A stretch of DNA of 64,000 nt from Alphaproteobacteria bacterium. GTDB taxonomy: Bacteria > Pseudomonadota > Alphaproteobacteria > JAVJVX01. How positions within the stretch are numbered: position 1 is the stretch's first letter; each line of letters begins with the position of its first letter. This document shows, one piece after another, positions 20,202-25,898 of the stretch. The DNA is taken from NCBI GenBank assembly GCA_040220875.1, contig JAVJVX010000005.1, positions 1 through 64,000 of the forward strand, written 5' to 3'. The notes below the pieces were generated by a model. The model worked only from the letters and a program-made list of their open reading frames with translations. It ran no database searches and was not told the DNA's origin. The translations under genes were made by a program, and so were the position numbers.

Positions 20202-20205
<4 letters not shown>
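19126..20205 (+). CDS. AbrB-family (PF05145-type) integral membrane protein
   Basis: A 359-residue, very hydrophobic protein with about ten predicted membrane segments in two homologous halves; each half carries a PGG motif (FFAAAPGGLNEM near 130 and SLAPGGVAEMSLTAL near 300). This is the AbrB/ammonia-monooxygenase-like family, named by mistaken annotation; the substrate is unknown. The gene starts at GTG, 27 bp after argE, and its stop overlaps the queA start by 4 bp, so it is translated with the queuosine genes. A transport role tied to queuosine or arginine metabolism can only be guessed. Confidence 0.85.
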
Positions 20206-22432
<2,227 letters not shown>

Positions 22433-22436
22433 GCCT

Positions 22437-22901
22437 ATGGCGGAAGAAACCTATGGTGGACTGAGCCAGCTTGGCGGGTCGGGCAAAATCCCGCACGCGC
22501 CCGAGGAAGCGACGCTCGAGACCGTTCCGAACCCGCGCGCGGGCACGGCCTATGTCGTGCGGTTCACCTGTCCCGAGTTCACATCGCTCTGCCCCGTCAC
22601 GGGGCAGCCCGATTTTGCCCATCTCGTCGTCGATTACGTGCCCGGCCCCCGGCTCGTCGAGAGCAAGTCGCTCAAGCTTTTCCTTCATTCCTTTCGCAAC
22701 CACGCGGGGTTTCACGAGGCCTGCACCCTGATGATCGCGGAACGGATTGTCGGTGCAAGCGACTGCACCTGGCTCAGGATCGCGGGCTACTGGTATCCGC
22801 GGGGCGGTATTCCGATCGATGTTTTTTACCAGACCGGACCCGCACCCGACGGAGTCTGGCTGCCCGATACGGGCGTTGCACCCTATCGCGGACGCGGCTG
22901 A
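22437..22901 (+). CDS. queF: NADPH-dependent preQ0 reductase QueF
   Basis: A 154-residue type I QueF, reducing the nitrile of preQ0 to the amine of preQ1. The catalytic Cys lies in [14 protein letters not shown] and the NADPH-binding segment in [15 protein letters not shown] with the conserved Glu and His nearby (HEAC). The ATG at 22437 follows AAGGA at 22424-22428, 4 bp after tgt; upstream in-frame codons are tgt shadow. This is the last gene of the plus-strand operon, facing queD 16 bp away. Confidence 0.96.
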
Positions 22902-22917: not shown

Positions 22918-23277
22918 TCAGTCGGGGCGCCGCACCACCGCGCCCCCTTCGGGATCGCGCAACGCAACGCGGACCAGACCCGGCACATCGGGCCGCAGCC
23001 GATCAAAAATCCAGCCGGCGATCGCCGGCGCAGTCGGATTTTCGAGCCCCGGAATATCATTGAGATACTGATGGTCCAGCGCCTCCACCACGGGGGCCAC
23101 GAGGCGGCGCAACTCGGCGAAATCCATCACCCAGCCGGTCTGGTCGCCGACATCGCCGGCGACCCAGATTTCGGCCTCGAAGGAATGACCGTGCAGCCGA
23201 CCGGCTTTTGAGCCCGCCGGCGCCTCCGGCAATCTGAGCGCCGCTTCGAAACGGATTGATACGAAAACTTCCATCAT
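22918..23277 (-). CDS. queD: QueD-like 6-carboxytetrahydropterin synthase family protein lacking key residues
   Basis: A 119-residue T-fold protein, collinear with E. coli QueD (compare RLHGHSF, TGWVMDFAEL, LDHQYLNDIPGLENPT). QueD turns dihydroneopterin triphosphate into carboxytetrahydropterin. The codon-level reading shows two losses: the zinc His of AAHRL is Leu (FEAALRL, codon CTC), and the catalytic Cys of KCGRLHGH is Ala (SKAGRLHGH, codon GCC). The other two zinc His (HGH) and the Asp-His pair in LDH remain. Two adjacent ATGs (23277, 23274) begin it; 11 bp after queE, same operon as queE and queC. Family certain, activity doubtful. Confidence 0.88.
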   Translation of the reverse strand: MMEVFVSIRFEAALRLPEAPAGSKAGRLHGHSFEAEIWVAGDVGDQTGWVMDFAELRRLVAPVVEALDHQYLNDIPGLENPTAPAIAGWIFDRLRPDVPGLVRVALRDPEGGAVVRRPD

Positions 23278-23288
23278 GACCCGATCGC

Positions 23289-23933
23289 CTAGGGAAATCC
23301 GAGGAGCTTGTGCGTCTGCAGGCTGAGGCGCCATTGGGGATGGGCAAGACAGTAGGCCAGCGCCAGGCGGGTGTTCTCGTCCAGGCGGGGACCGTCCATG
23401 GGCTGCAGGTAGAAATGCGCGAAGTCCAGATGCGCGAATTTATCGGGCGGCGCACCGTCTTGCGGGTAGACGAGCTTGAGCTCCTGCCCGCATTCCTGGA
23501 CCAGCGCCGCCCCGGCCTTGGGACTGACGCAGATCCAGTCGATCCCCGCCGGCGCCGCCAGGGTACCATTGGTCTCGATCGCGATTTCGAACCCGGCGCC
23601 GTGCAGAGCATCGATCAGCGTCCGGTCGAGCTGCAGGAGCGGCTCGCCGCCCGTGCAGACCACGAGCGGGAGCGCCGCGCCGGACGCCGCCTGCGCGTTC
23701 CAGACCGTCCGCACCCGGTCAGCCAGGGTCGCGGCATCGATGAAAGTGCCACCACCCGGCCCGTTCGTCCCGACGAAATCGGTATCACAGAACCGGCAGA
23801 CTGCCGTTGCCCGGTCGCGCGCCAGCCCGGACCACAGATTGCACCCGGCAAAGCGACAGAACACGGCGGCCCGGCCCGTATTCGCCCCTTCGCCCTGGAG
23901 CGTGTAGTAGATTTCCTTGACCGCGTAGCTCAT
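23289..23933 (-). CDS. queE: 7-carboxy-7-deazaguanine synthase QueE
   Basis: A 214-residue radical-SAM enzyme converting carboxytetrahydropterin to CDG. The N-terminus [19 protein letters not shown] is typical. The cluster cysteines are arranged as C-x14-C-x2-C (GCNLWSG...VCRFCDTDF), a QueE variant of the usual radical-SAM spacing. [12 protein letters not shown] is the SAM-binding motif. It overlaps queC by 4 bp and precedes queD by 11 bp. Confidence 0.95.
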
Positions 23934-24640
23934 CGTCGCGCCTGGCCGGTCATATAGGCGATCGGATCGTCGATCCCCGCCTCGTTAAACCCCTTGAGGC
24001 GAATCTGGCAGGCATCGCAGACCCCGCAGGCCGTGCCGCCCACACCCGGACTGTAGCAACTGGTGGTCTCACTGTAATCGACGTCCAGCTCGAGCCCGCG
24101 CCGTATGATATCCGACTTGGACAAGTCTATCAGGGGGGCATGGATCCGGACCGGGATTTCCCCGGCCACCGCTGCGCGGGTCGCGAGATTGGCCATGGCT
24201 TCGAAAGCCCTGACGAATTCGGGCCGGCAATCGGGGTAGCCTGAATAATCGACGCGATTGACACCGATAAAGATGTCGCCCGATCCGCGCACTTCCGCAT
24301 GGGCCAGCGCGAAGGCCAGAAAGATTGTGTTCCGTGCCGGCACGTAGGTAACGGGAATCTCGCTCGCCATCTCGCTGGCGTCACGATTGGTCGGCACCGG
24401 AATGTCGGCCGTGAGGGCCGAGCCGCCAAACTGTCGGAGATCGATTTTGATGATGACGTGATCCTCGACGCCCCGGCTGGCCGCGACACGCTCGGCCGCG
24501 CGGACCTCGTGGATGTGGCGCTGGCCATAGTTGAACGTCAGGGCGGCCACGTCGTACCCTTCGCTCTGAGCAACCGCCAGGGCGGTGGCGGAATCAAGCC
24601 CGCCACTCAGCAACACGATCGCGACCGGATTTTGCGCCAT
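23930..24640 (-). CDS. queC: 7-cyano-7-deazaguanine (preQ0) synthase QueC
   Basis: A 236-residue PP-loop ATPase ([12 protein letters not shown] near residue 11) converting CDG and ammonia to preQ0. FNYGQRH and [17 protein letters not shown] are family motifs, and the zinc cysteines are in [18 protein letters not shown] start it at the ATG at 24640, where homology begins; the longer frame to 24721 crosses the divergent queG promoter. First gene of the queC-queE-queD operon. Confidence 0.96.
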
Positions 24641-24740
24641 TACCCATCTTTCTTTTTTAGTCCAGAACCGCCACTCTGCCGGCGATTCGCGCCAGGGCGG
24701 GCCGGCGCAGGTGGATAACACACCGGGAAGCAGCTTGGCT

Positions 24741-25898
24741 ATGCGGACGGCGGAAGCCCTGATTGCCGAGGCGCACCGGTACGGCTTCGATGCCGCCGGG
24801 CTGGCACCGGCGCGCCTGCCGGATTACGCCGAAAAAGGGCTGCTTGCCTTTCTCGAGGCGGGCTGGCAGGGCGACATGGCCTGGATGGCCGACACGGCGG
24901 CGCGCCGTCGCGCGCCGCGGCGACTCTGGCCCGAGGCGTGTTCGATCCTGGCGGTCGGCACCAACTACACCCCACCCGATGCGCCGCTGCGTCTACTCGA
25001 CTTGCCCGAGTGCGGCAACGTGTCGGTCTACGCCCGTGGTGACGATTATCACGACATACTGAAGCGTCAGCTCAGGCAGCTCGCTCGGCACATCGCGGCC
25101 AGTCTCGGGACGGAGGTGAAAATCTTCGTCGATACCGCGCCGCTCATGGAAAAGCCCCTGGCCCAGCTTGCCGGGCTCGGCTGGCAGGGCAAGCACACGA
25201 ACCTTGTCTCGCGGAAATTCGGTTCATGGCTGTTCCTCGGGGCCATTCTGATCGCGGCCGAGATCGAGCCCGGCCAGCCCGGCGAGGATCATTGCGGCAA
25301 CTGCCGCAGATGTCTCGACATTTGCCCGACAAACGCATTTCCGGCGCCCTACAAACTCGATGCGCGGCGCTGCATTTCCTATCTGACGATCGAACACAAG
25401 GGGCATATTCCGGTTGAATTCCGCAAGCCCATCGGCAACCGGATCTATGGTTGCGATGATTGCCTCGCCGTCTGTCCCTGGAACAAATTCGCCCAAGCCG
25501 GCACGACCTCGCGCCTCGCCGGCAGGATCGAGCTGCAGGCCCCCAAGCTGCGCGACCTGGCGGCGCTCGATGAGGCGGCTTTCCGCGAGGTGTTCCGCAA
25601 ATCGCCAATCAAGCGGACCGGGCGCGCGCGGTTCGTGCGCAACGTGCTGATTGCCATCGGTAATTCAGGTGATCCCGCCCTCATCCCGTCTGCGACCGCC
25701 CTCTTGACGGACCCGTCTCCACTGGTGCGCGCGATGGCGGTCTGGGCTTTGGGCCAGCTTGAAGGGGCCGACAGCTTTGTCGGGCTGCGCGACCGGCACC
25801 GGCCGGATGAACCCGATCCCGCGGTGCGGGCCGAGTGGGACCGTCCTACGCCTATTGCAGGCGCCGGCGAAACATCCACTGCGCCACGGCAAGGCTGA
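24741..25898 (+). CDS. queG: epoxyqueuosine reductase QueG
   Basis: A 385-residue cobalamin-dependent iron-sulfur enzyme catalysing the last step of queuosine synthesis in tRNA. Landmarks are [26 protein letters not shown] (read in two parts; it includes the catalytic Asp), two 4Fe-4S motifs ([16 protein letters not shown] and [15 protein letters not shown]), and a C-terminal HEAT-like segment ([20 protein letters not shown]). The ATG at 24741 is preceded by GGAAG; TTG at 24735 is an in-frame alternative. It diverges from queC, and its 3' end overlaps the 3' end of the ABC permease gene by 47 bp on the opposite strand. Confidence 0.94.

Follow-up and report, generated by a model that had tools for sequence, protein, structure and literature searches.

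Can the QueD of a queuosine operon still serve its pathway once catalytic residues have been lost and, if not, which protein would make CPH4 in its place? The question is raised by a 64,000-nucleotide stretch of an alphaproteobacterial genome (hereafter the window), in which a QueD-family gene, here called copy A, lies among other queuosine genes. The features are as follows, with substitutions given in E. coli QueD numbering:

20202-21248, forward strand: queA, above its curated cutoff
21257-22432, forward strand: tgt, above its curated cutoff
22437-22901, forward strand: queF (QueF-II), convergent with copy A; above its curated cutoff
22918-23277, reverse strand: copy A, QueD-family gene with H16L, H25S, C27A, E86P and E110D; HGH and Asp70-His71 kept
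22954-22956, reverse strand: codon GAT for Asp108, replacing Glu110 (codon read)
23026-23028, reverse strand: codon CCG for Pro84, replacing Glu86, which is Glu in 90/90 other QueD-type sequences
23203-23205, reverse strand: codon GCC for Ala25, replacing the catalytic Cys27 (codon read and E. coli QueD alignment)
23236-23238, reverse strand: codon CTC for Leu14, replacing the zinc ligand His16 (codon read and E. coli QueD alignment)
23289-23933, reverse strand: queE (TIGR04508, 351.7 bits, cutoff 240)
23930-24643, reverse strand: queC (TIGR00364, 200.1 bits, cutoff 150.3), with a 4-base overlap with queE
24738-25898, forward strand: queG (TIGR00276, 427.7 bits, cutoff 200); start codon unrefined

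Copy A is a stop-free open reading frame of 119 amino acids that starts 11 bases past the queE stop, so the first-pass annotation was right to place the gene in frame after queE. A longer version starting at 23334 (138 amino acids, inside queE) was discarded, because similarity to homologues starts only at the ATG at 23277. The same annotation had read the zinc-binding His of AAHRL as Leu and the nucleophilic Cys of KCGRLHGH as Ala. Both readings were borne out by the codons and by a phmmer alignment to E. coli QueD (4ntk/3qna/4ntm) that has no gaps across the catalytic part, and these assignments are therefore not alignment artefacts. These two losses were correctly listed but understate the damage: E86P, E110D and H25S had been missed, and copy A contains no cysteine. 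The rest had been described as well kept, which holds for HGH, Asp70-His71 and LNDIPGLENPT, all present; LDHQYLNDIPGLENPT and TGWVMDF are kept as well. Across 117 other aligned PTPS sequences, position 16 is His in 114 and Arg in 3, while position 86 is Glu in 110, a gap in 6 and Ala in 1. C27A and E86P each alter more than one base of their codon, which makes an assembly error at a single base unlikely, and with several such changes inside an intact frame we rejected assembly or sequencing error as the main cause.

By family models, copy A belongs to PTPS, with 95 bits against Pfam PF01242 (cutoff 22.4), and narrowly misses the QueD equivalog TIGR03367 (88.3 bits, cutoff 89.25), a cutoff below which some sole-copy QueDs in queuosine operons likewise fall. 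The CxxxHGH signature of PTPS-I/QueD (PMC5041015) reads AGRLHGH here, with Ala for Cys, and two of the three zinc histidines are present, His16 being Leu. The gene context is that of a QueD, with queE and queC alongside, and the G+C content by codon position (0.75/0.47/0.73) is normal for a coding gene. A single folE was found in the genome, outside the queuosine locus. Given that queE, queC, queF, tgt, queA, queG and folE are all present, the need for CPH4 is presumably intact and CPH4 is presumably made.

We evaluated the ancestry of copy A through its closest matches, which are canonical QueDs of families f93, f107 and f59 (51–55% identity), all encoded in the same queD-queE-queC arrangement adjoining queF and tgt. 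These matches and this synteny indicate that copy A is the operon's own QueD and lies outside the Cys-less form described below. Its mean distance to canonical QueDs is 0.53, compared to 0.33–0.49 among canonical QueDs themselves, while the window QueE shows an ordinary distance of 0.355. The second PTPS homologue of this genome (copy B, see below) stands at 0.61 from its own nearest form, whose members are mostly 0.50–0.58 apart. Both copies have evolved faster than QueE.

To place these losses in context, we surveyed 385-386 alphaproteobacterial genomes, in which the window genome is the sole member of its order and the order of genome G271 is represented by its own genus only. Two QueD-type forms were found: one is canonical, with His16, Cys27 and Glu110, and the other carries Tyr, Asn or Ser in place of Cys27 and Arg in place of Glu110. 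We refer to the latter, the alphaproteobacterial Cys-less QueD form, as Arg-type (examples in G009, G114 and G083). The Cys27 and Glu110 changes are coupled in about 60 sequences (L099, L094, L066, L076, L101, L072 and ~55 further loci), although the tail carries one extra residue in most members, making the register at position 110 ambiguous. In all of them the ETC motif is swapped for R-[DPGEAQ]-[ST] or similar, and the usual neighbours are queE, queF and a divergent queC. At least 24 of the sampled genomes with queC and folE contain an Arg-type gene, mostly beside queE, and no other PTPS homologue, so loss of the cysteine alone is compatible with QueD function, and an Arg-type-like protein can presumably carry out the H2NTP to CPH4 step. 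Additional PTPS copies in Arg-type genomes belong to the LHGAT subfamily, not to QueD, and were set aside.

Other departures from the canonical residues were also observed. Family f122 (L135, L137) carries H16R and E110D with Cys27 kept, in queuosine operons and as the sole PTPS; L013 likewise carries H16R. Together, the Arg-type and f122 examples indicate that losses of single catalytic residues are not unusual in Alphaproteobacteria and can be tolerated. The QueD of Hamiltonella defensa (L012) has Tyr for Cys27 and is canonical otherwise. In genome G060, which has queE and tgt, both PTPS copies (L149 and L150) are without the whole Cys27 loop, and their Asp70-His71 pair is replaced (DE and HK). 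Genome G122 has queE and queC and gave no tgt match.

Against this background, copy A stands apart. Loss of His16 together with Cys27 occurred in no other sequence compared, and only copy A loses His16, Cys27 and Glu86 together: Arg-type and f122 sequences keep Glu86, Arg-type sequences keep all three zinc histidines and f122 keeps Cys27. The proposal of a lineage-specific form with altered active site thus found no backing for copy A, as none of the other sequences compared shares the Leu/Ala pair or E86P, and the widespread Cys-less form is a different one. Synteny and tree placement both assign copy A to the canonical QueDs, and no other sequence in the sample shows the same set of losses. 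Judging from these sequences, absence of Cys27 is in itself widespread among Alphaproteobacteria, and the combination in copy A is the unusual part.

The first-pass annotation had suggested looking for a second queD and for folE, and both exist. A search of the whole genome (2.54 Mb, 99.2% complete) returned exactly one further PTPS/COG0720 gene, copy B (C5:158488-158823), located 135 kb from copy A on the same contig, which excludes contamination as its source. Copy B keeps His16, His31, His33, Asp70, His71 and Glu86, has Tyr at position 27 and ends in an Arg-containing tail (RRESCGEGC). It thereby displays the full Arg-type motif set, i.e., Cys27 replaced by Tyr, Asn or Ser and Arg at 110, with the zinc histidines, the Asp-His pair and Glu86 kept. 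It is, however, without a ~9-residue loop carrying the otherwise conserved G50-W51, and its QueD-model score of 50 bits falls well below the cutoff of 89. When all alignment columns were used, Arg-type sequences and copy B formed one clade (SH-aLRT 90); with the motif columns removed, the main Arg-type body still grouped together, while no firm position emerged for copy B, G401 or the f9 sequences. Among the samples searched, only the window genome was seen to combine a copy of the canonical lineage with one of Arg type. A second copy B-like gene in G280 was rejected, the match at a contig start being the end of the gene at L044.

The surroundings of copy B differ from those of typical Arg-type genes. 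Its neighbours are a response-regulator-like gene on one side and an NCS1-type permease gene on the other, and no queuosine genes were found among them; a znuA-like zinc-uptake gene (L158:14600-15607) lies ~6 kb downstream. By identity, the closest relative of copy B belongs to family f83. Both sampled genomes of this family have tgt and lack queE, and no convincing queC was found in the one of the two that was searched (G083). The Cys-less PTPS of these tgt-positive, queE-negative genomes (L152 in G083, and G184) suggests another use or a relic, and copy B-like proteins may therefore have another job.

With Tyr at position 27 of copy B, the residues of both copies indicate that the window genome has no conventional QueD. 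Three options had been put forward at the outset, namely an inactive protein with another QueD elsewhere, another mechanism, or a protein binding CPH4 as a partner. The first fits best, in that a second COG0720 gene, folE and an intact pathway were all found, yet the second copy does not restore the missing cysteine.

We therefore weighed how two such genes might share one task. The reading we prefer, to which we give a probability of roughly one half, is that copy A has degenerated as a QueD and that copy B has taken over its chemistry, leaving copy A dispensable or a partner in the hexamer. Specifically, copy A would be the operon QueD passed down vertically in this lineage, with an active site dismantled by the loss of His16, Cys27 and Glu86 and the change of Glu110 to Asp, and with its fold and Asp70-His71 kept. 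Copy B would perform the conversion of H2NTP to CPH4 on which queE depends, using the Cys-less, Arg-containing configuration. Copy A would then be either already dispensable or kept on in mixed A/B hexamers, as a partner with little or no catalytic activity. We infer the inactivity of copy A and the production of CPH4 by copy B from their residues, and contact between the two is likewise a proposal of this reading. Its main weakness is copy B, which is divergent and has its nearest relative in the queE-less f83.

Predicted structures are consistent with two folded proteins. AlphaFold2 monomer models reached a pLDDT of 96.1 for copy A and 95.8 for copy B, and in Foldseek searches E. coli QueD was the best solved match for both (TM 0.97 for copy A, to 4ntk, and 0.89 for copy B). 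In rat PTPS, each active site draws its Asp-His pair from the neighbouring chain, and the other chain supplies the zinc histidines together with the Cys and Glu anchors. If this division holds for QueD, copy A could, by analogy, donate Asp70-His71 to an active site of copy B. PTPS is a hexamer with zinc sites between three adjacent monomers (PMC7546909), and the original enzyme work, by its title, concerns an intersubunit catalytic triad. Since QueD/PTPS active sites lie between subunits, copy A is a possible partner in mixed hexamers. A functional analogy is offered by non-catalytic paralogues such as PDX1.2 (PMC6829848), where an inactive copy may act as assembly partner of its active counterpart, although PDX1.2 belongs to an unrelated family and A-B contact is here hypothetical. 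Reports of a heteromeric or pseudoenzyme QueD were not found in the open-access papers searched.

Among the alternatives, the one that survives best, which we consider doubtful, is that copy A is a working QueD with a mechanism altered to dispense with Cys27 and a full three-His zinc site, while copy B is otherwise employed. Its position directly behind queE, a score just short of the QueD cutoff and the likeness of copy B to proteins of queE-less f83 genomes are all in line with this, as are the precedents of the Arg-type form, without Cys27 and Glu110 throughout, and of f122, a sole PTPS with H16R and E110D. The precedents, however, stop short of copy A: Arg-type and f122 proteins keep Glu86, and each group retains Cys27 or else the complete set of zinc histidines, whereas copy A alone gives up His16, Cys27 and Glu86 together, and it has evolved fast relative to canonical QueDs.

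A bolder variant, which we regard as unlikely, is that a homo-hexamer has split into two complementary, individually incomplete paralogues, making the CPH4 synthase obligately heteromeric and independent of a catalytic cysteine. Copy A would contribute the scaffold and Asp70-His71, and copy B, having lost its loop, the zinc histidines and Glu86.

Simple decay appears quite unlikely. Here, copy A would be in an early stage of loss after takeover by copy B, with no present function and an open frame that is only temporary. Losses clustered at otherwise conserved catalytic positions, a long branch and a second copy in the genome are what such decay would leave, but copy A shows no stop or frameshift, its codon-position G+C is normal, its predicted fold is intact and the two conserved segments noted above are unaltered. 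The retained frame, fold and Asp-His segment favour the partner role of our preferred reading over plain decay.

Zinc-sparing use of one copy, i.e., copy A or copy B as a Zur-type QueD2 with each used under a different zinc supply, is very improbable: queD pairs with one Zur-controlled member have been described elsewhere (PMC9508795, PMC2770081), copy A has lost a zinc ligand and the znuA-like gene is near copy B, but reported Zur-regulated paralogues retain their zinc ligands (PMC2770081), a crude pattern scan around copy B gave no Zur-like site, copy A sits in the main operon while the full zinc site belongs to copy B, and QueD2 (7v0f), though sharing with this genome the pairing of two queD-like genes, falls far below E. 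coli QueD among the structure matches. A PTPS-III folate bypass was rejected for both copies, as folB is present and the ExxHGH motif absent; PTPS-III (ExxHGH, folate) and PTPS-II (CxxxxxHGH, biopterin) share the COG0720 fold, but neither motif is present in copy A (KAGRLHGH) or copy B (AYGTLHGH).

Compared with known systems, copy A is closest to E. coli QueD/PTPS-I (about 48% identity), with which it shares the queE/queC operon context and from which it differs at His16, Cys27, Glu86 and Glu110. With the Arg-type form it shares the absence of Cys27, but Arg-type sequences always keep His16; copy B, with Tyr27, Arg near 110 and all zinc histidines, resembles that form more closely. The Arg-type form is not necessarily new and may match an already described subgroup, for instance PTPS-V, one of the unresolved PTPS subgroups that have been mentioned (PMC5041015). 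PTPS-I reportedly tolerates a moved active-site cysteine (Phillips 2012), and a His/Asp dyad is said to have been described (Miles 2014).

The cysteine motif CxxxHGH is used for QueD annotation, while much of Alphaproteobacteria appears to make the queuosine precursor with a QueD that has neither this cysteine nor Glu110. The window genome departs further still, pairing an apparently disabled operon copy with a divergent second one. Should copies A and B act jointly, they would show an enzyme in transition from a single gene to two; if copy A works alone, the accepted catalytic mechanism would be incomplete. The Arg-type form may merit more attention than copy A itself.
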